Source: a bacterium (GTDB lineage: Bacteria > Zhuqueibacterota > QNDG01 > JAGLOF01). Taken from it: DNA of 64,000 bases. Positions 1-15,959 of the stretch are shown piece after piece. A program made the translations under genes and the position numbers. Below the pieces are notes generated by a model. The model saw only the letters and a program-made list of their open reading frames with translations, had not been told where the DNA came from and did no database searches. Where the stretch lies: assembly GCA_016934955.1 (NCBI GenBank), contig JAFGRY010000009.1:1-64000 (forward strand), written 5' to 3'. The number at the start of each line of letters is the position of its first letter. Position 1 is the first letter of the stretch.

Positions 1-50
1 GATCAGCCGCGACCGCGTCCGCCGCCCCCCGGCGGGCTGGCGCGCCGGTT

Positions 51-102
51 GCCCTACAAGCGTCGTGACGGCAGCGGCCGTCAGCTGCATGCGGAGTTAG
101 GC
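51..102 (-). repeat. attC-like imperfect palindrome (integron recombination site)
   Basis: Read on the minus strand, GCCTAAC (102-96) fits the attC R'' box (RYYYAAC) and lies four bases after the stop of the hydrolase gene. An imperfect palindrome follows, with inner arms TGACGGC/GCCGTCA around a 4-base loop, ending in GTAGGGC (57-51), a degenerate R' box (consensus GTTRRRY, one mismatch). Position and orientation relative to the gene are those of an integron cassette. The weak R' box and the closeness to the window edge keep this tentative. The alternative is one end of a small element bounded by 12-bp inverted repeats. Confidence 0.4.
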
Positions 103-106
103 AGAA

Positions 107-991
107 TCACGGTTGCAGCATCGGGCGACATTTCTCCCGCAGCCAACTTCGCACAGCCACAAGGACCGCTTCCCGGGTATAACGAAAAGCATGATCATCA
201 TCGACGACGATCGGGGTGAGCCTGCTGCCGTCAACTGCCTCGATTGCCCTGGCTATTGGAATCATGATTTTTTCCAATGGGGCCGTATCGTCCCTCCAAC
301 CCCCGACCAGTAACACCGGCTTCCGACTGAGCACCTCACCATGATTGCGAATATCGAATTCGAATGAATTCGCAAGGATCTCTTCGACGGTCTTCTCTCC
401 GCCAACACCACGCGCCGGATTTCCTCGCATCAGTTTTTCAAAAGCATCCTCCCAGTACACTCTGGTCTTCGGATCGCTGCTAATGTCCTCGGCAAGGGCT
501 CCCAGGTTGCCGGCCCCGATCCCTGCCACACATGACACACGGGAATCACACGCACCGGTCATTAGTGCCACCCACCCACCATAACTGTATCCAATGGCGA
601 CAAATCGATCCTTTGCAACAAAGTCAAGACCGGCGTTATCCAGATAGTCAAGAGCCGCCACCACATCCGCTAATGTATGCAATGGAGTGTTTGTGCCCTC
701 GTTCCGGAACATACCCCGATAGTTCATAACCAGAGCATTCCAACCATCCGCCGAAATAGCTGCCCCGATTCCGAACAAATCTCCCTCGCCTCCTGGAAAA
801 CCGTGCAAGATAATGACAGTAGGATGCCCGCCCTCACCCGCTCCGCGAAACAGGATTGCGTGAATCAAATCACCATCGCTGCGGAAGGTCACGTCTTGGG
901 GCCTGAGATGGGATTGCTCTTGACTCCTTGCTCCAGAGCCCAAAGCAATCAAAACCAGGAAAGAAGCAATAGCTATGGTAAAATCGCGCAT
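107..991 (-). CDS. secreted alpha/beta hydrolase, likely integron cassette gene
   Basis: This 294-aa protein belongs to the alpha/beta hydrolase superfamily; the substrate is unknown. It has a signal peptide (MRDFTIAIASFLVLIALGSG, cleaved near ARSQ), an oxyanion-hole HGFPGGEG stretch, a nucleophile elbow GYSYGG, and probable acid and histidine residues in GGWRDD and DDDHAF near the C-terminus. It resembles dienelactone-hydrolase or prolyl-oligopeptidase-like esterases. The frame stays open to 1066, but I choose the ATG at 991: it begins a clean signal peptide and lies about 40 bases inside the cassette boundary (GTTAGGC at 1031-1025), whereas the longer start would cross that boundary. An attC-like site follows the stop immediately. 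Function is likely periplasmic or extracellular ester or peptide hydrolysis. Confidence 0.75.
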   Translation of the reverse strand: MRDFTIAIASFLVLIALGSGARSQEQSHLRPQDVTFRSDGDLIHAILFRGAGEGGHPTVIILHGFPGGEGDLFGIGAAISADGWNALVMNYRGMFRNEGTNTPLHTLADVVAALDYLDNAGLDFVAKDRFVAIGYSYGGWVALMTGACDSRVSCVAGIGAGNLGALAEDISSDPKTRVYWEDAFEKLMRGNPARGVGGEKTVEEILANSFEFDIRNHGEVLSRKPVLLVGGWRDDTAPLEKIMIPIARAIEAVDGSRLTPIVVDDDHAFRYTREAVLVAVRSWLREKCRPMLQP

Positions 992-1019
992 TGGACCCCC
1001 CAAGTAAGAAGAAGTGTCT

Positions 1020-1031
1020 ATTCTGCCTAAC
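1020..1031 (-). repeat. R'-type core GTTAGGC at cassette 5' end; 12-bp inverted repeat partner of 96-107
   Basis: The minus strand reads GTTAGGCAGAAT. GTTAGGC matches the integron R' core GTTRRRY, the point where a cassette is inserted. The same 12 bases occur on the plus strand at 96-107, so the hydrolase gene is bounded by a perfect 12-bp inverted repeat. In an integron this is expected, because R'' and R' are complementary, although the extra AGAAT match is more than that model needs. Confidence 0.45.
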
Positions 1032-1132
1032 ATAATTATCTCTGCCATCTCGCTCTTCAATTTCAATTACCTAAATAGGTAATAAAAGTCCTGTATAGGT
1101 GTTTTTCTAAGGGCATTACCTTTATAAGGTAT
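1032..1132. repeat. AT-rich stretch with three spaced palindromes, attI-like
   Basis: Between the frameshifted small ORF and the cassette boundary lie three short interrupted palindromes of one family: ATTACCT-AAAT-AGGTAAT (1066-1083), CCTGTATAGG (1090-1099) and ATTACCTTTATAAGGTAT (1115-1132). In integrons the attI site next to the first cassette carries extra integrase-binding repeats, and this is where one would lie if the array is read leftward. attI sites are poorly conserved, so this is positional inference only. A regulator-binding region or decayed DNA is equally possible. Confidence 0.25.
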
Positions 1133-1173
1133 AAATGAATTCCCTATATAAGACATCTGATAACATGACAACC

Positions 1174-1499
1174 TTACGATTCCATCCTGCTTTCCAAACC
1201 CAAAGCGACAACCTCCCGATACGGTATCTGCCCCATAAACCACACTGCGGATTCCAGCACGCTCCGACAGATTTAATCATCTTCTGTACATATCTTTCAT
1301 GCTGATATACACGTATCATCACCAGTTTATTGCCGGGTGGTTGTGCCTTCTTCTTTTTCAGCACCGCTTCATCAACAATCACTTCAACCATGGTGTATCT
1401 CTTCCCGGATTTTTGGTCATGTCGATATCGTACACCATATAGAGCCACCCACTTCTTGGTTCCGCTCTGACCGGGGTAGAGTGTTTTAACCGACTTCAT
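1174..1499 (-). pseudogene. frameshifted small conserved ORF downstream of intI
   Basis: The open frame from ATG 1499 begins MKSVKTLYPGQSGTKKWVAL and has a good AGGAGG site about seven bases upstream. It contains a conserved-looking GACWNPQCGLW motif near residue 80. Beyond that motif the reading frame loses sense. Shifting frame at the GGGG run (plus-strand CCCC, 1231-1234) restores a sensible end, QIPYREVVALGLESRMES, stopping at 1174. Uncorrected, the frame runs to 1122. From memory it resembles a family of small proteins of unknown function found near integrases and transposases in proteobacteria; I cannot verify this. It starts just past the intI stop as if co-transcribed. A sequencing error in the G run is the alternative to real decay. 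Confidence 0.5.
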
Positions 1500-1514
1500 C
1501 CTGAAGTCCTCCTA

Positions 1515-2283
1515 TTAATTATCAGCCGGGGTTGTTACGGCCAATCCCCCTTTGTTGAGTACATGCGTATAGATCATTGTTGAAAACGTATTGCCAGATA
1601 AAAGAGTACTCAGCATTCGGATACTTTTATTGCCAAAGCAAATGGCATGTCCACTCTTCCGAAGCCGTTTTCAAGGTCTTTTTTATGCTGCTGCTTAACA
1701 AACAGGTATTGTTGCTTCAACCCGTCCACCGCCATGCGCGGCAGGGGCACAACCCGGTCCTTCCCTCCCTTTGCATCCCGAACGGTTATCTGCCGATAAT
1801 CAAAGTCGATATCCTTGACCCGCAGCCTCAGGCACTCATTCAGCCGCAGTCCAGCGCCGTAAAGCATCGTCGCAATCAGCCGGGGCGTACCGTGAAGATG
1901 CTCTATGACATGTTCAACCTCATTCTTTGACAGCACCGTAGGCAGCCGGGCCGCTTTTTTGCCCACACCAGATTTTCACATGTGCCCATTGGCGCTTTCA
2001 GCACGTCTCTGTATAATAAAACGATCGCACACAGCGCTTGATTTTGCGTGGCAGCAGCCACCTTTCTAACGACTGCCAGATGGTTCAGAAATTCGGTAAC
2101 ATGTTTCTCGTTCAGCTCTTTGGGATGTCTCGTCCCGTGAAACCGTATATATTCTTTAATCCACCTGATATACGCTTTTTCAGTCTGGAAGCTGAGATGC
2201 CGCACCCGCAGAGCGGCACGCACCTGGTCGAGCAGTTTCGGAGGCAGTGAGGTGTGTTCGATGTGAGATGCTGGTCCAGTCAT
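1515..2283 (-). pseudogene. intI: integron integrase (IntI-like tyrosine recombinase), frameshifted and internally deleted
   Basis: From ATG 2283 (AAGGA five bases upstream) the first frame gives the SAM-like N-terminal domain (LLDQVRAALRVRHLSFQTEK..YIRWIKEYIRFHGTRHP). The second frame, entered at an A run (1955-1960), gives the catalytic domain with box I arginine (GAGLRLNECLRLRVKDIDF). A further shift at 1625-1628 gives KYPNAEYSFIWQYVF, typical of IntI. The sequence then jumps, near 1579-1584, directly to TMIYTHVLNKGG, the nucleophile-tyrosine end. About 60-80 residues carrying the box II His-x-x-Arg are therefore missing. The homopolymer shifts could be sequencing errors; the deletion cannot, so the enzyme is dead. 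It points the same way as the downstream cassette, as in the reversed integrases reported from spirochaetes and planctomycetes. Confidence 0.85.
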
Positions 2284-2498: not shown

Positions 2499-5400
2499 CT
2501 ACTTGGTGAACAGCATCTTCATCATCTTCATGGTGTCACCGGCTCTCAGGCGGGCGATATACAGCCCGCTTGCCACCCGCTGGCCGTGCATGTCATCCGC
2601 GCGCCAGACCACCTCATGCTGCCCCGCGTCCATCACCTCGTCAACAAGCACTTTCACCCTGCGGCCCCGAATGTCGAACACTTCCAGGATGACCCGGCCC
2701 GGTTTCGCGGCTGTGTAGGTTATGGTGGTGCTCGGATTGAACGGGTTCGGATAGCAGGGAAGCAGTTCGTACGACTGCGGCAGCTGCAGCGGCGCTTCCG
2801 GGTCCTCCGGATCCTCGACATCCGTTTCCGAGGCCACCGCCCAGGCGATCATGGCAGCCATCAGGTTCGAGCTGTTCTCCAGCGTACTGCAGAAATACGA
2901 CATATATCCGATCTTGCCGCTTCCATGCACCCGCACGAAGGAGTGAACGTCATCGACACCTGCATCCCAGCGGGCCACGGGAATGGCATCGGCCTTGAGG
3001 TGATTGATACCCACGGCTGTGTCATTCACGCACTGAGCGACGACTGACCCCGCTCTCAAGGTCGTTCCAAGGGCGTTGTCGACCGTTGTTCTGGCCACGG
3101 CGCTCTGAATTCGGCAGGTGCTGCCGGCGCCGAACCATTCGCGAATCGAGTCGAGATTCTCCTTCGTGTCGCTGATGGCTTCCGGCACATCGTCAAAGAA
3201 AATCACCGACCCGCCGTTGGCGATATAGGTCTCGATTTCTCCGACCCGGCCCTTCGGTACCAGCGATGAGTCGGCCATCAGGTAGAGATCGTAATCCGTG
3301 AGATCGCCGGGTATCGTGTCGGTGAACACATGATACATATCCAGCGTATAAAAAACATTATAGAGCACGGAATCCATTTCGGTGGCGATTACCGCCGCGC
3401 CGTATCCGTCGTAATCATAAGAGACGTAATCCTGGCCGCTTACATGGTCGTAGAGCGGTTCATACTGACGTTTGATAGGCGTGAAACGGTAACGGCCAAC
3501 GCTGGGCGAGATCGTGCCCGACCAGCCGTTGTCCACCCGCACCCGGTAGACGCCGTTGGCGTCGGTTTTCGTGGTGTCGTGAATAGAACCGAAAATAACG
3601 GTGACACCGGCGGTTGGCACACCCTGGGTGTTTCTGATCGTGCCGCTGATCACCACCGTTTTCGGTCCCACCGCTTTATAGTTCTGACTCACCTGGTGGG
3701 TGTCGAGATCGGCGTACACGCGTTCCGCCGGGGTGAAAAGCAGGCTGTCTTTCACCGCGGTCACCGTACCCGTCCAGCCGTTGGGCACGGTGATCGTGTA
3801 GCGTCCGAAGGGGTTGATCGTCACCGAGTCGGTTTCGCTTTCCGAACTGTAGCGCACATAGCCGCTCATCATCGGCGTGGATTCTTCATCATAAAGAATT
3901 CCGGTTATCTCGATCTCGGCCGGACCCCGGTTCGCGAAATCCTGGCCGTCCGCGTCAAAGGCCGCCGCGTCATAGGTTCTCACCTGGGGCTCGAACAGCA
4001 GCTCTCCGTGCATCGGCTGCAGCACACCTGACCAGCCGTGCGGCACCTCGATGCTGTAGTCGCCCTGGCTGTCGGTGAGCACCGAATCGTCGCCGCTGTT
4101 GTAGTAGACCGCGATGCCTTCGGCGGCGCTGCCGTCGGGATTGGTAATGCTTCCTGAAAGCGTGACCACCGCCGGGCCTTCTACCCAGAAATCGTGGTTC
4201 GCGCTGTGCGCGATCACGTTGTTGAAATGCAGCAGCGACGGCTCGAAATCGTGTCCGGTTTTTCTCGGCACCGCGTCGCCGCTCCATCCGGATCCGACAG
4301 TAAACAGGTAGTCGCCGTTCGAGTCACTGAGCACCGAATCGCCGGCGGTGCCGTAATAGACAGCCGCACCGACCACCGGATCATCTGAAGGGCTGTAGTA
4401 CAGACGCCCGGAAATGACCGCCTGGCCCGGACCCACCACCCGGTAATTCTGATCGGCCTGATGGGCGGTGAGCACATTATAGCTGCGGGTCGCCGGCGTG
4501 AAGACCTGGCCGTCTTTGGACGGCATTGCCGAGCCCGTCCAGAGAAAGGGCACGCTGAACGTGTAGGCGCCCGAGGCGTCCGTCATGACCGAATCGGTAT
4601 CACTGTACAGCACCGCCGCATTTTCCAGGGGCGCGCCGCCGACATCGGTGATCACACCGCTGATGTTCAGCATCGGCGCTCCCTCGACCCAGTAGTTCTG
4701 GCCGGTCTGGTGAGCGGTTATCGAATAGTACGGCCGCTTGTTGGGTTCGAAATCATATCCGGCTTTCTGCGGTATCACTTCCCCGCTCCAGCCGCTGGGA
4801 ACGATGATTTCATAGTGCCCGGAACCGTCGCTCATCACCGAATCGTCACCGAAATACACGGCCGCGCCCCCGATGGGTTCGTTGTCCGGGTAAAAATGCA
4901 GTGTGCCAGAAATGGTCACCATGTCGGGACCAAGCACATCGTAATCCTGATCCGGCTGATGACCGGTAAGGATTGTATAGGTTTTACCGGCAGGGACGAA
5001 CAGCAGGTTGTCCTTGGAGGGGGTCACTGTCCCGCTCCAGAGGAACGGAACCGTAAAGCTGTACGCGCCCGACCCGTCGCTGGTTACCGTGCCGTCACCG
5101 TAATCGATGAGCACGCCTGCCAGCAGCGCGCCCCCGGCATCCCTGGTTACCCCGCTGATTATCAGCTCGGGCGCTCCTTCCACCCAGAAATCCTCATCGG
5201 TCCGGTGGGCGCTGACATCGGCGTAGGGGCGGGAGGTGGGCTGAAAACTATAACCGGGTTTCCGCGGCCGCACCGATCCGGTCCACCCGTTGGCGACCGT
5301 GAAAGAGTAATTGCCCCCGGCGTCGCTGAGCACCGAATCACCGCCGCTGCCGTAATAGACGGCCGTATTGGCTATGGACTCTCCCCCGGGCGCGAAAAAC

Positions 5401-7799
5401 AGCTTACCGCTTATGGAGACGATCGCCGGACCGCGCTCCGTGTAGTCCTGGTTCGTACGGTCGGTGGTCAGGAGTGTGTAGGACTTTACGGCCGGGGTGA
5501 ATACCAGATCATCTTTGGCCGGTGTGACCGTGCCTGTCCAGGCAAAGGGCACCGATACGCTGTAATAGCCGTCCGCATCGGTAAGCACCGAATCGCCGTC
5601 AAAGCGCATGGCTATCCCCTCGACACCGCTGCCCCCGAGGCTGGTGACCCGGCCCGTGATGTCAACAAAAGGCGATCCCTCGACCCAGAAATCCTGTCCC
5701 GTCTTATGATCCGCAAGATCCGCCAAAGGACGATAGGTCGGCTGGAACGTATGGGCCGGCTTGGAGGGCCGCACCGTTCCGGTCCAGCCGTTGGCAACCG
5801 TGAAACTGTAGTTACCGTTCGCGTCGGTCGTTGTCGAATCACTGCCGTAATGAACAACCACGTCGCCGATGCCCTCTTCTCCCGGCGTGAAGTAAATGGT
5901 GCCCGAAACCGTCACGTTCGCCGGGCCCAGCACTTCATAATTCCGGTCGTACCAGTGCTCCTGCACATTCGCGTAGGCGTACGACTCGGGAGCGAACAGC
6001 ATGTCACCCTGTGAGACCGTGACCGTGCCGCTCCAGCCCAAGTCGCATCCGATCACATACTCACCGGCCGAATTGGTCATCACCGTATCGCCTGAACCGT
6101 AGGTCAGCACCGCACCCGCAAGCCCCGGTCCGTCGGGCTCATACCGCACCACACCCCTGATGTAGGCCCTGGGCGTACCGTTGACAAGATAATCCTGGTC
6201 CACGGTATGGGCCCTGATATTACTGTAGGTGATATATTCAGGAGTGAACCGGTAGCATTCCTTATACACCGTCACCCTGCCGCTCCAGTCAAAGGGAACG
6301 GTGATCTCATAGGTTCCGTCGGCGGCGCTGTACACCGTGTCGCTTTCCGTTCCGTAAATCAGGGCGGCTCCCTCCACATCATCTCCGCCGTCGAATCCGA
6401 CCCGGCCGCTTATCTTTACCCGGGCCGGACCGATGATCTCATAATTCTGATTGACCTGATGTGTGTCCAGTTCAGTATACGTTTTATAGGCGGAGGCGAA
6501 CATATAATCTTCCTGGGAAGGGCGCACCGTGCCGCTCCAGCCGTTGGGCACGGTAAAGGAATAGTACCCCGATACATCGGTCATTACCGAATCATCGATA
6601 TCGTAGTAGACGGCGACGCCTTCGACGCCGACATCTTCCGGATCATACACGTACCCGCTCACCGTGATCTGAACCGGTCCTTTGATAATATAATCCTCGT
6701 CGGGCATATCGGTTTTCAGAATTGCATATACAGCTGAATCGGGATCGAACAGCCAGTCTGCATGACTGGGCACAACCGTGCCGCTCCAGGCATAGGGAAC
6801 TCCGATTGCGTATTGGCCATTGGCGCCGGTCACCACCGAGTCACCCGCGTCGCCGTAGTAGAGAGCGACGCCGGCGACCCCAGGACCGCCGGCACCCCAG
6901 GTCACCGTACCTGAAACCGTATCGACCGACGCGCCGTCAACCCAGAAGTCCTGGCCGGCGGCATCCGCGGTCAACTCCACGTACGGCCGGTAATCGGGGC
7001 CGAATTCATGATTCTCTTTAGCCGCACTCGCTCTGCCCGAATACAGATAGGGAACGGTCTGCTCGAAGTGGCCGCTGACATCGGTAACCACCGTCGCGCC
7101 GATTTCACTAAAGGTGATTTCAGCGTTCTCTATGGGTTCGCTGTCATCGATAAAGTAGACCGTGCCCGATATTGTCAGGTCAGGACCGCCGGAAGCAGTA
7201 ACGTTCTGGTCATAGATATAGCAGTAGAGAGAATCATGACTCAGTGACATCGGCGCAAAGGTGAAATCCGTCTTTGAAGGAGTGATCGTCCCGGTCCACT
7301 TGTAGGGGAGCTCATGGTCGTACTCACCGTTGGCATCGGTCACGGCCGTGCCGCCGCCGTTACTAAATGTCACCGTTACCCCGGCCAGGCCCTTTCCGTT
7401 GAATTCATGCAGTATCTGTCCCGACACATGAACATTGGGATCCTGTATTTCCCAGTAATCCTGAAACTGCATGTTACTGATCACTCCCGAATAGGTTCTG
7501 GTCGAATCTTCAAAATCGAATCCCGGACAGCTGGGGGTTACCGTACCGCTCCACCCCAGCGGCACCGCCATGGAGTAGAATCCGCTTTTACTGGTTTGTG
7601 TTTCGCCCAGACCGCTGAACGTCAGCGTTACACCCTCCATCATCCGATGGCTGGGGTAAAAGAAAACCACACCGGAAATGACCGGATTCGTCTGCGCGTC
7701 AGCTTGCCCGGCCGTCAATAAAAGACCCAGTAAAAGCAGCACTGCGCCGGTGCGCCGTATGGTATTCTTTGCCGGTTTGACATTCATTCTGAACTGCAT
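2499..7799 (-). CDS. giant secreted protein with 17 tandem beta-sandwich-like repeats and T9SS-like C-terminal domain
   Basis: This 1766-aa protein is exported. It has a signal peptide (hydrophobic GAVLLLLGLLLTAGQADA). Seventeen repeats of about 80-85 residues follow, roughly residues 45-1480, each starting like VTVSGTIYF and containing a TDANGNYSFTVANGWTGTV-like core and an F.P....Y...HQ..QDY.V.GP end. They recall carboxypeptidase-regulatory-like or Cna-B-type beta-sandwich modules. A non-repeated domain (about 1490-1680) with GGSVIFFDD resembles a class-I glutamine-amidotransferase-like or ThuA-like fold. The last 85 residues (YPNPFNPSTTITY, then FDIRGRRV and SGLYIARL) form a FlgD/T9SS-type sorting domain. 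I chose ATG 7799 over 7826 because GGAGG sits eight bases before it. It is probably a surface adhesin or structural protein secreted through the SprA system also encoded here. Confidence 0.85.
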   Translation of the reverse strand: MQFRMNVKPAKNTIRRTGAVLLLLGLLLTAGQADAQTNPVISGVVFFYPSHRMMEGVTLTFSGLGETQTSKSGFYSMAVPLGWSGTVTPSCPGFDFEDSTRTYSGVISNMQFQDYWEIQDPNVHVSGQILHEFNGKGLAGVTVTFSNGGGTAVTDANGEYDHELPYKWTGTITPSKTDFTFAPMSLSHDSLYCYIYDQNVTASGGPDLTISGTVYFIDDSEPIENAEITFSEIGATVVTDVSGHFEQTVPYLYSGRASAAKENHEFGPDYRPYVELTADAAGQDFWVDGASVDTVSGTVTWGAGGPGVAGVALYYGDAGDSVVTGANGQYAIGVPYAWSGTVVPSHADWLFDPDSAVYAILKTDMPDEDYIIKGPVQITVSGYVYDPEDVGVEGVAVYYDIDDSVMTDVSGYYSFTVPNGWSGTVRPSQEDYMFASAYKTYTELDTHQVNQNYEIIGPARVKISGRVGFDGGDDVEGAALIYGTESDTVYSAADGTYEITVPFDWSGRVTVYKECYRFTPEYITYSNIRAHTVDQDYLVNGTPRAYIRGVVRYEPDGPGLAGAVLTYGSGDTVMTNSAGEYVIGCDLGWSGTVTVSQGDMLFAPESYAYANVQEHWYDRNYEVLGPANVTVSGTIYFTPGEEGIGDVVVHYGSDSTTTDANGNYSFTVANGWTGTVRPSKPAHTFQPTYRPLADLADHKTGQDFWVEGSPFVDITGRVTSLGGSGVEGIAMRFDGDSVLTDADGYYSVSVPFAWTGTVTPAKDDLVFTPAVKSYTLLTTDRTNQDYTERGPAIVSISGKLFFAPGGESIANTAVYYGSGGDSVLSDAGGNYSFTVANGWTGSVRPRKPGYSFQPTSRPYADVSAHRTDEDFWVEGAPELIISGVTRDAGGALLAGVLIDYGDGTVTSDGSGAYSFTVPFLWSGTVTPSKDNLLFVPAGKTYTILTGHQPDQDYDVLGPDMVTISGTLHFYPDNEPIGGAAVYFGDDSVMSDGSGHYEIIVPSGWSGEVIPQKAGYDFEPNKRPYYSITAHQTGQNYWVEGAPMLNISGVITDVGGAPLENAAVLYSDTDSVMTDASGAYTFSVPFLWTGSAMPSKDGQVFTPATRSYNVLTAHQADQNYRVVGPGQAVISGRLYYSPSDDPVVGAAVYYGTAGDSVLSDSNGDYLFTVGSGWSGDAVPRKTGHDFEPSLLHFNNVIAHSANHDFWVEGPAVVTLSGSITNPDGSAAEGIAVYYNSGDDSVLTDSQGDYSIEVPHGWSGVLQPMHGELLFEPQVRTYDAAAFDADGQDFANRGPAEIEITGILYDEESTPMMSGYVRYSSESETDSVTINPFGRYTITVPNGWTGTVTAVKDSLLFTPAERVYADLDTHQVSQNYKAVGPKTVVISGTIRNTQGVPTAGVTVIFGSIHDTTKTDANGVYRVRVDNGWSGTISPSVGRYRFTPIKRQYEPLYDHVSGQDYVSYDYDGYGAAVIATEMDSVLYNVFYTLDMYHVFTDTIPGDLTDYDLYLMADSSLVPKGRVGEIETYIANGGSVIFFDDVPEAISDTKENLDSIREWFGAGSTCRIQSAVARTTVDNALGTTLRAGSVVAQCVNDTAVGINHLKADAIPVARWDAGVDDVHSFVRVHGSGKIGYMSYFCSTLENSSNLMAAMIAWAVASETDVEDPEDPEAPLQLPQSYELLPCYPNPFNPSTTITYTAAKPGRVILEVFDIRGRRVKVLVDEVMDAGQHEVVWRADDMHGQRVASGLYIARLRAGDTMKMMKMLFTK

Positions 7800-8040
7800 A
7801 ACCGCCTCCGCGAAATATACAATCACCGCTTATAACTTCTCACAACTCATTGTTTTTTATGAACAAAGCCAACATATAAATTACATTTCATCCACTATAC
7901 TGCATAAATCGTGCCTTTCTCTTTAAATCGGGGGCATGCGATCCCGCTGTACACGGCGAACCCGGAATCAACCGCGTGATCATCACCATGGCCTGTATTG
8001 ATGCTTGCATTTCTTTTAAAAAACAGGTATTTTACCGCTC
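7800..8040. other. divergent intergenic region with candidate promoter for the patatin gene
   Basis: This 241-bp gap separates two divergent genes for secreted proteins. On the plus strand TTGCAT (8005-8010), 17 bases, then TATTTT (8028-8033) would place the transcription start within a base or two of the ATG at 8041, suggesting a leaderless message; no good ribosome-binding site precedes that ATG. No clear promoter was found for the leftward gene, and no RNA gene. Confidence 0.3.
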
Positions 8041-13537: not shown

Positions 13538-15959
13538 CTTCTCTGACAACCCGGGCAACATCGGCGACGCTATCGTCATCGTCGAGTCTGATCAGATGCA
13601 CCCCCTGGGTTGCCCTTCCCAGCACCTTCAGCTTGTCGATCTGCTGTCTGATTACCTGGCCGTTGGTGGTGATAATGATCAGATCATCCTCATCTACCAC
13701 ATCCATCATCGCGATCATATTGCCGATTTTATCGTTGCACTTCATCGTGATGACTCCCTTGCCGCCCCGGGAGGTGATGCGGTAATCGGCATTGCTCGAG
13801 CGTTTACCGAATCCCTTGTCCGTCACCACCATGAGCGTTCCTTCCCGGCGCACGACGACCATACCGACAACGAAATCGTTTTTCGAAAGCGTGATTCCCC
13901 GGACGCCGCTGGCTGTTCTGCCCATGGCGCGAACGTTCTCTTCGTTGAAACGGATCGCCTTGCCGTGGGTGGTTCCGAGAATGATATCCTGGTTTCCGTC
14001 GGTCAGTTTCGCGTCTATCAGCTGATCTCCGGTCCGGATCGTAATCGCCTTTATGCCGTCCTTGCGCGGATGACCGAAGGCGGCCAGTTCCGTCTTCTTT
14101 ACCTGCCCAAGCCGGGTGGCCATAAAGAGGAATTTGTCCTCATCAAATGATTTTACCGGAACCACCGCTGCTATCCGCTCACCCTTTTCCACCTGAATCA
14201 GATTGACAATCGCCCGTCCGCGGGAATTTTTCCCCACCTGCGGCAGCTCATGCACCTTCAGCCAGTAACATTTACCGCGGTCGGTAAAGAAGAGAATATA
14301 ATGGTGGGTGGAAGCGATAAACAGATGCTGCACCGAATCTTCTCTGCTGGTGTCGGCGCCCTTTACCCCTTTCCCGCCCCTGTTCTGGCGCTTGTACCCG
14401 CTCACCGGGAACCGCTTTATGTACCCTCCCAGGGAGATGGTGATTACCATATCCTCTTCAGCAATGAAGTCTTCAACGCTGAACTCTTCGGTCTGCCTGA
14501 TAATTTCGGTACGCCTGCCGTCGCCGTACTTCTCCCTTATCTCCTCAAACTCCGTCTTGATCACCGCCATCTGACGATCCTTGCTGCTGAGAATCGACTT
14601 CAGTTTCTGGATCTCCTTGATCAGCGCCAGATATTCGTCTTCTATCTTTTTTCGTTCCAATCCGGTCAGGCGCTGCAGCCTCATGTCGAGAATGGACTGG
14701 GCCTGAATCTCCGACAGCTTGAACGTTTTCATGAGGCCGCTTTTAGCTGTCTCCGGACTGCGGGATTTCTTGATCAGCTGAACAATCTCATCGATATTAT
14801 CCAGGGCGATTTTCAGCCCTTCCAGAATATGGGCCCGTTTTTCGGCCTTGTCGAGAAGAAAGCGGGTCCGCCTCAGGATGATCTCATGACGATGCTCGAT
14901 GAACAGCGTCAGCATATCCTTGAGCGTGAGCACCTGCGGCCTGTCATTCACGAGAGCGAGCAGAATCACTCCGAAGGTGGTCTGCATCTGCGTGTGCTTA
15001 TAGAGACTGTTGAGAATGACCTGCGGCTGTGCGTCGCGGCGGAGTTCGATGACAATACGCATACCGTCCCGGTCCGATTCATCTCTCAGGTCGGAGATAC
15101 CGTCGATCTTCTTGTTCTTCACCAGGTCGGCGATAGAGGTAATCAGGTTGGCCTTGTTCACCTGATAGGGAATTTCTGTTACGATAAGGGCTTCCTTGTT
15201 TCCTTTCCCCTTTTCGACATTGGCCTTCGCCCGCAGCACGATACGGCCCCGGCCGGTACTATATGCCTCTCGTATGCCCTCGGAACCGTATATAATGCCG
15301 CCGGTGGGAAAATCGGGCCCGGAGACATGCCTGAGCAGTTCTTTCGCGTCGATCTCGGGGTTATCGATCACCGCGATCAGCGCGTTGACGATCTCGACGA
15401 GATTGTGGGGAGGAATATTGGTGGCCATGCCGACGGCGATACCCGAGGCTCCGTTTACGAGCAGATTGGGAAAAAGCGAGGGCATCACCTTGGGTTCGGT
15501 GAGCGACTCGTCGAAATTGGGAACGAAATCAACGGTTTCTTTCTCGAGGTCGGCCAGAATATCTTCAGCCACCGCCTTCAGGCGGGCTTCGGTGTATCGC
15601 ATCGCCGCCGCGGAATCTCCGTCGATAGAGCCGAAGTTACCCTGTCCGTCGACCAGTGTATAGCGAAGCGAAAAATCCTGTACCATTCGTACCATGGCGT
15701 CATAAACAGCCGAATCCCCGTGAGGATGGTACTTACCGAGTACGTCACCGACAATACGGGCGGATTTTCGGTGCGGCCGGTTGTGCCGCAGGCCCAGTTC
15801 AAGCATCCCGTACAATATTCTGCGGTGCACGGGCTTGAGACCGTCCCGCACATCCGGCAGCGCTCTGGAAACGATGACCGACATGGAGTAATCCATGTAG
15901 GAACTTCTCATTTCATCTTCAATGTAAATCGGAATTATTCTGTCGCGTTTGTCAGCCAT
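13518..15959 (-). CDS. gyrA: DNA gyrase subunit A
   Basis: The 813-aa breakage-reunion subunit of DNA gyrase introduces negative supercoils with GyrB. The N-terminal winged-helix domain carries the quinolone-determining region [20 protein letters not shown], with the wild-type Ser and Asp positions, and the active-site tyrosine in [10 protein letters not shown] (about residue 123). A coiled-coil arm follows, then the C-terminal beta-pinwheel. The GyrA box reads QNRGGKG rather than the usual QRRGGKG (near residue 555). Length is normal for the family. It lies 20 bases after gyrB in the same transcript. Confidence 0.98.

Follow-up and report, generated by a model that had tools for sequence, protein, structure and literature searches.

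The first 2283 nucleotides of the DNA stretch analysed here, a window of 64,000 nucleotides, are a broken chromosomal integron in which the integrase gene intI and a cassette run in one direction, a relic rather than a working integron. Within it lies an open reading frame of 125 amino acids (1499–1122) that is a decayed copy of a conserved protein family of about 115 residues, here termed the companion, and beyond this an array of palindromes. The usual description of an integron names intI, attI and a promoter as its three components. While the relic itself is of a known integron type, the companion-palindrome module is apparently an undescribed addition to integrons; a full-text literature search found the companion gene and the attI palindromes unmentioned, but most subscription papers lay outside its coverage and an earlier description is possible.

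A relic integron in the window

The window starts where contig C29 (213 kb) starts, in a genome of 4.4 Mb in 52 contigs, and its position 1 is a contig end rather than an origin. Read from right to left on the minus strand, the relic presents two IntI frames, the 125-aa open reading frame, a non-coding stretch, GTTAGGC, a hydrolase gene and GCCTAAC, with the following features.

1903..2283, minus: N-terminal piece of IntI, SAM-like domain (TIGR02249 positions 1–94, E 2e-28; PF13495, E 7e-30)
1610..1966, minus: middle piece of IntI (TIGR02249 positions 93–204, E 6e-37)
about 1518..1595, minus: out-of-frame remnant of the IntI C-terminus with the catalytic-tyrosine segment TMIYTHVLNKGGLAVT, from comparison with intact relatives
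1174..1499, minus: decayed companion gene of the conserved ~115-aa family, frameshift near 1233 (hmmsearch E 8e-39; E 1.9e-25; alignments A1 and A2)
1143..1152, minus: attI palindrome 1, CTTATATAGG (spacings of 24, 29 and 20 the same in contig C50)
1119..1128, minus: attI palindrome 2, CTTATAAAGG
1090..1099, minus: attI palindrome 3, CCTATACAGG
1070..1079, minus: attI palindrome 4, CCTATTTAGG, 20 bp from palindrome 3
1025..1031, minus: crossover core GTTAGGC between attI and the first cassette (homology with C50 stops at G^TTA, then different cassettes)
107..991, minus: cassette gene for a secreted alpha/beta hydrolase of 294 aa, ATG at 991, stop at 109–107 (PF12697, E 1.4e-9; PF00561, E 2e-9)
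51..102, minus: candidate 5′ half of the attC site of the hydrolase cassette, R″ box GCCTAAC at 102–96, complementary to GTTAGGC at 1031–1025

The preliminary description of this DNA had read the recombinase as a broken and inactive IntI, and this is borne out on each count. TIGR02249 scores far above the Xer models (E 6e-37 against 1e-14 for the XerC model on the same piece) and both pieces align with the intact IntI of relatives, comparison with which places frameshifts near IntI residues 107 and 218 and the loss of about residues 229–303, including the HxxR of box II.

The genome holds two further integron relics, on contigs C35 and C50. In C35 a second broken intI, open over its C-terminal two thirds, scores 308 bits on TIGR02249 (family cut-off 265) against 130 on the XerC model. 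Behind it, in the same direction, come the 125-aa open reading frame in shortened form, an attC-like site (15122–15230; a weak best model match, E 0.85) and a toxin-antitoxin cassette of the Phd/VapC type. C50 has no intI and carries 184 bp that are 82% identical to window positions 1211–1028, then a HEPN gene and array. The aligned window and C50 sequences are alike through GATAATTATG^TTA and diverge after it, into GTTAGGC and the hydrolase in the former and GTTATAC and the HEPN gene in the latter; shared sequence running into different cassettes therefore marks the attI/cassette boundary, with two insertions at one attI. The point of divergence supplies one defining trait of an integron, a G^TTRRRY crossover in an attI beside intI; this crossover was located through junction comparison in the source genome only. 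The GTTAGGC core recognized beforehand at 1031–1025, with the hydrolase ATG (991) 40 bases inside it, is in agreement with this.

Of the attC-like site originally proposed at 51–102, the GCCTAAC box (102–96) is present four bases past the hydrolase stop, but the site itself is unsupported, as neither of two attC covariance models, R1 and R2, gave a match at 51–102 on the cassette strand. The candidate presents the 5′ box only; with the contig stopping at position 1, its 3′ half is either absent or situated past that end. One of the covariance models comprised 15 sites, none of them from the source genome; a simple home-made attC finder gave too many background matches and served only to choose the seeds. 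In C50, attC sites were found by covariance model in the cassette direction at L155:2275–2397 (E 1.7e-4) and L007:10561–10659 (E 0.039). Genome-wide, R2 found some sites and R1 none, because the attC sites of this genome are too divergent for it. The empty R1 search, together with the unconfirmed attC in the window, is what could be said for a quite different reading, in which a decayed XerC-like recombinase merely adjoins an unrelated hydrolase and the repeats arose by chance. This reading is scarcely credible, given an IntI family score well over Xer, the paralogous relic with a VapBC cassette in C35, the attI that the window shares with C50, the cassette-specific divergence from G^TT and the best of the C50 attC sites; the attI/cassette junction and C50 already refute it.

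Some further observations concern these loci and their surroundings. A perfect 12-bp inverted repeat, GTTAGGCAGAAT..ATTCTGCCTAAC, flanks the hydrolase cassette at 96–107 and 1020–1031 and extends five bases beyond what the att boxes require. The C50 relic (L007:8539–16001, L155:1–5750) has kept attI and the last companion codons, with intI gone, and its array near tRNA-Phe contains HEPN, FISUMP, SUMF1-like, beta-propeller, SnoaL-like, BrnT/BrnA-like and MazF-like genes, all but HEPN assigned by eye. Next to the relic, window positions 2499–7826 (minus strand) encode a protein of 1775 aa built from repeated beta-sandwich-like units, with an end resembling a C-terminal secretion/sorting domain.

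Every part of the window relic lies on the minus strand, and C35 is likewise arranged, so that intI does point in the cassette direction, as had been noticed at the outset. The rarity then ascribed to this arrangement was overstated: it is the rule in the order to which the window belongs, its phylum (Calditrichota/KSB1) shows it frequently, and Treponema had already provided examples (PMC3607928). Contigs of the same order with an intact intI are arranged alike (G001, G003, G004, G006, G008), and the relatives L063, L080, L056 and L058 have attC sites downstream of intI on the intI strand (those of L063, L056 and L058 being model seeds), which makes a same-direction intI usual in the group. 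Reversed integrases are documented for Treponema (PMC3607928) and for Spirochaetota (PMC9668308), and there, as in the window, transcription of intI runs toward attI and with the cassettes; the passages of these two papers that deal with the arrangement mention neither a companion nor a palindrome array, and the window copy differs in being broken and in belonging to Calditrichota/KSB1. Taken alone, the same-direction intI is a further instance of a known variant and a modest point. The earlier assignment to an FCB-type genome is supported by a phylum shared with metagenome-assembled genomes named Calditrichota and candidate division KSB1. In one relative (L051, G006:C41) intI (486–1274, minus strand) is split by an open reading frame resembling a GIY-YIG homing endonuclease.

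The companion gene and its distribution

The relatives carry the companion as an intact gene, about 115 aa long, which starts just after intI or overlaps it; in reversed loci it overlaps or abuts intI by 0–20 bp. An alignment of 60 members shows G10, G13, G22, R29, Y30, D33, T42, E44 and W94 to be invariant. No Pfam or NCBIfam family scored over threshold, and the C-terminal half resembles DUF5710 (PF18974) with the motif GGxWN..KxWxLPY in 28 of the 60 members (best E 3e-6); the likeness is confined to this half, the N-terminal half (PGQxGTKK...CVRYRYD...KTVELIVEE) being without a known family. Close pairs with unsaturated synonymous sites give dN/dS values of 0.10–0.23, which indicates that the protein is maintained under purifying selection. 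A Foldseek search with a structure model of the companion (pLDDT 88) matched no solved fold, with nothing at E<0.001, so that DNA binding is without structural support and the structure decides nothing; the truncated C35 companion, folded alone, gave a poor model.

Scanning 85,000 species genomes yielded 240 relatives of the companion, the best 80 of which were taken with their flanks. These 80 loci are spread over Calditrichota, KSB1, Geobacter and other Desulfobacterota, Chloroflexi, Acidobacteria, Spirochaetes, Rokubacteria, Beta- and Gammaproteobacteria and Lentisphaerae; a search of plasmids for the companion found none. Among the same best 80, IntI is encoded within 3 kb in 40, and intI is absent from 36 despite at least 1.5 kb of upstream sequence. 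A comparison of 59 relatives places the companion in 17 of the 28 genomes with an IntI over the cut-off against 4 of the 31 others (p=2.8e-4). Three locus orders occur, intI then companion, companion then intI, and divergent, yet in every one of them the companion points toward the attC array, whichever way intI faces. On the IntI tree the companion appears in two deep clades and the order switches several times. Companion loci contain about 57 attC sites at E<=0.0084, every one of them downstream and on the companion's strand, with none upstream, the seed sites among them having been picked with strand in view and the other sites not.

Heading the array side and pointing in the cassette direction, the companion might be taken for a very common first gene cassette. 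That it overlaps or abuts intI in reversed loci, that palindromes and the crossover rather than an attC site come after it, and that it is also found upstream of intI on the same strand make this most improbable, and it is rejected because no attC precedes the companion (none at E<=0.01).

Seven loci (L085, L089, L110, L134, L137, L138 and L143) present a companion followed by attC sites with no intI nearby. The isolate RBC074 carries one of these, L143, alongside a complete locus, L109, so that IntI could act in trans.

Palindromes between the companion and the crossover

The attI-like repeat region reported after intI proves to contain four palindromic repeats (1152–1070, minus strand), but it is better described together with the open reading frame as a conserved gene with an iteron array, found across phyla. 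The palindromes lie directly past the companion stop, or past intI where the companion comes first, and the crossover follows. They are of about 16–20 bp, in 3–9 copies and often 20 bp apart, with forms such as GCATCTA-N4-TAGATGC in Geobacter, GTTTCTA-N4-TAGAAAC and close variants in several groups, and TTGTCTA-N4-TAGACAA in a Desulfobacteraceae; the half-site may be written RG[TC][TA]TCTA-N4. Spacings cluster at 20 bp (49 cases, the mode), 24–26 bp (31) and 43–45 bp (21). The four palindromes of the window share their spacings (24, 29 and 20 bp) exactly with those of C50 and are of a shorter form, CCTA-N2-TAGG, that is CTA-N2-TAG instead of CTA-N4-TAG.

At least three palindromes are present in 30 of 73 regions downstream of a companion, whereas 73 shuffled regions gave no such case. 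Their presence follows the companion, with palindromes in 20 of 34 integrons that have it and in 0 of 14 IntI loci that do not (p=9e-5); by this test some 40% of companion loci have fewer than three. The half-sites also diverge in step with the companion (Mantel r=0.375, p=2e-4, 34 loci), and in the 15 loci with IntI their divergence correlates with the companion (r=0.31, p=0.01) and less with IntI (r=0.12, p=0.16), the sequences in both tests being related so that p values are only a guide.

These comparisons bear on whether the palindromes are instead extra binding sites of IntI itself, to which the companion's role would be unrelated. Class 1 attI1 offers a precedent, in that repeated accessory sites adjoin its crossover and are bound by IntI1 (PMC8191803), and the palindromes here lie near the crossover in all locus orders, even where the companion leads and they come after intI. 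The attI1 repeats are however direct, whereas the present palindromes are tied to a separate conserved gene, and most attI sites have no repeats of the IntI1-bound kind (PMC8191803). The lack of palindromes from the 14 IntI loci without a companion, half-sites such as GCATCTA that are unlike GTTRRRY core sites, and a half-site divergence that goes with the companion rather than IntI, albeit in a small sample, render this explanation unlikely.

Accessory factor or regulator

The region is probably a decayed sedentary chromosomal integron platform whose companion would bind the palindromes and act at attI, the binding being inferred from sequence comparison. In this platform intI, companion, palindrome array, attI crossover and cassette follow one another in one direction throughout. 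The companion would be a small DNA-binding protein that occupies the palindromes, probably in dimeric form along a single side of the DNA, since a 20-bp spacing sets the sites on nearly the same helix face and would suit a cooperative complex at attI. This complex may shape or regulate attI, either by aiding IntI on double-stranded attI in its reaction with attC or by setting cassette expression. We lean slightly towards a recombination accessory factor bound at attI over a pure expression regulator. The former agrees with the link of the companion to IntI; the 36 loci without intI are explained by an expression role no less well than by a recombination role.

The companion could be a local transcription regulator of the cassette promoter, and of its own and intI expression, with no part in recombination. 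The palindromes sit where a cassette promoter would be expected, between companion and first cassette, and many loci that have lost intI have kept both the companion and the palindromes. Set against this are the statistical link of the companion to IntI, its place directly against intI in most reversed loci, and regular arrays of 4–6 sites ending near the crossover, which exceed the needs of a simple operator. We regard the regulator as a serious but somewhat less probable alternative to a companion that acts in recombination at attI.

Accessory proteins have been proposed for the attI × attC reaction of Vibrio cholerae but not found, and are a proposed cause of the poor performance of its integrase in other hosts (PMC8946536, PMC8191803). 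The V. cholerae sedentary integron resembles the present loci in its chromosomal cassette array and in the accessory proteins that attI × attC is thought to need (PMC8946536, PMC8191803); unlike them, it has a divergent intI and an attI without repeats (PMC8191803). A companion with its own palindromic sites at attI across phyla is a testable accessory-factor candidate for the lineages that carry it. Whether many chromosomal integrons encode a small accessory protein of their own that binds helically phased attI palindromes, and that cassette insertion or expression either requires or is controlled by, is on the sequence comparisons evenly balanced; if they do, the companion would be the first partner of IntI to be encoded by integrons themselves. 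It also provides a marker for integron platforms in genomes, including those without intI.

Three IntI-like recombinases of 447–463 aa (L039, L040 and L041) have no companion gene and cluster with the Geobacter-type IntI in a deep clade. They were considered as IntI-companion fusions and rejected as such, the extra length looking like a second SAM-like DNA-binding domain placed in front.
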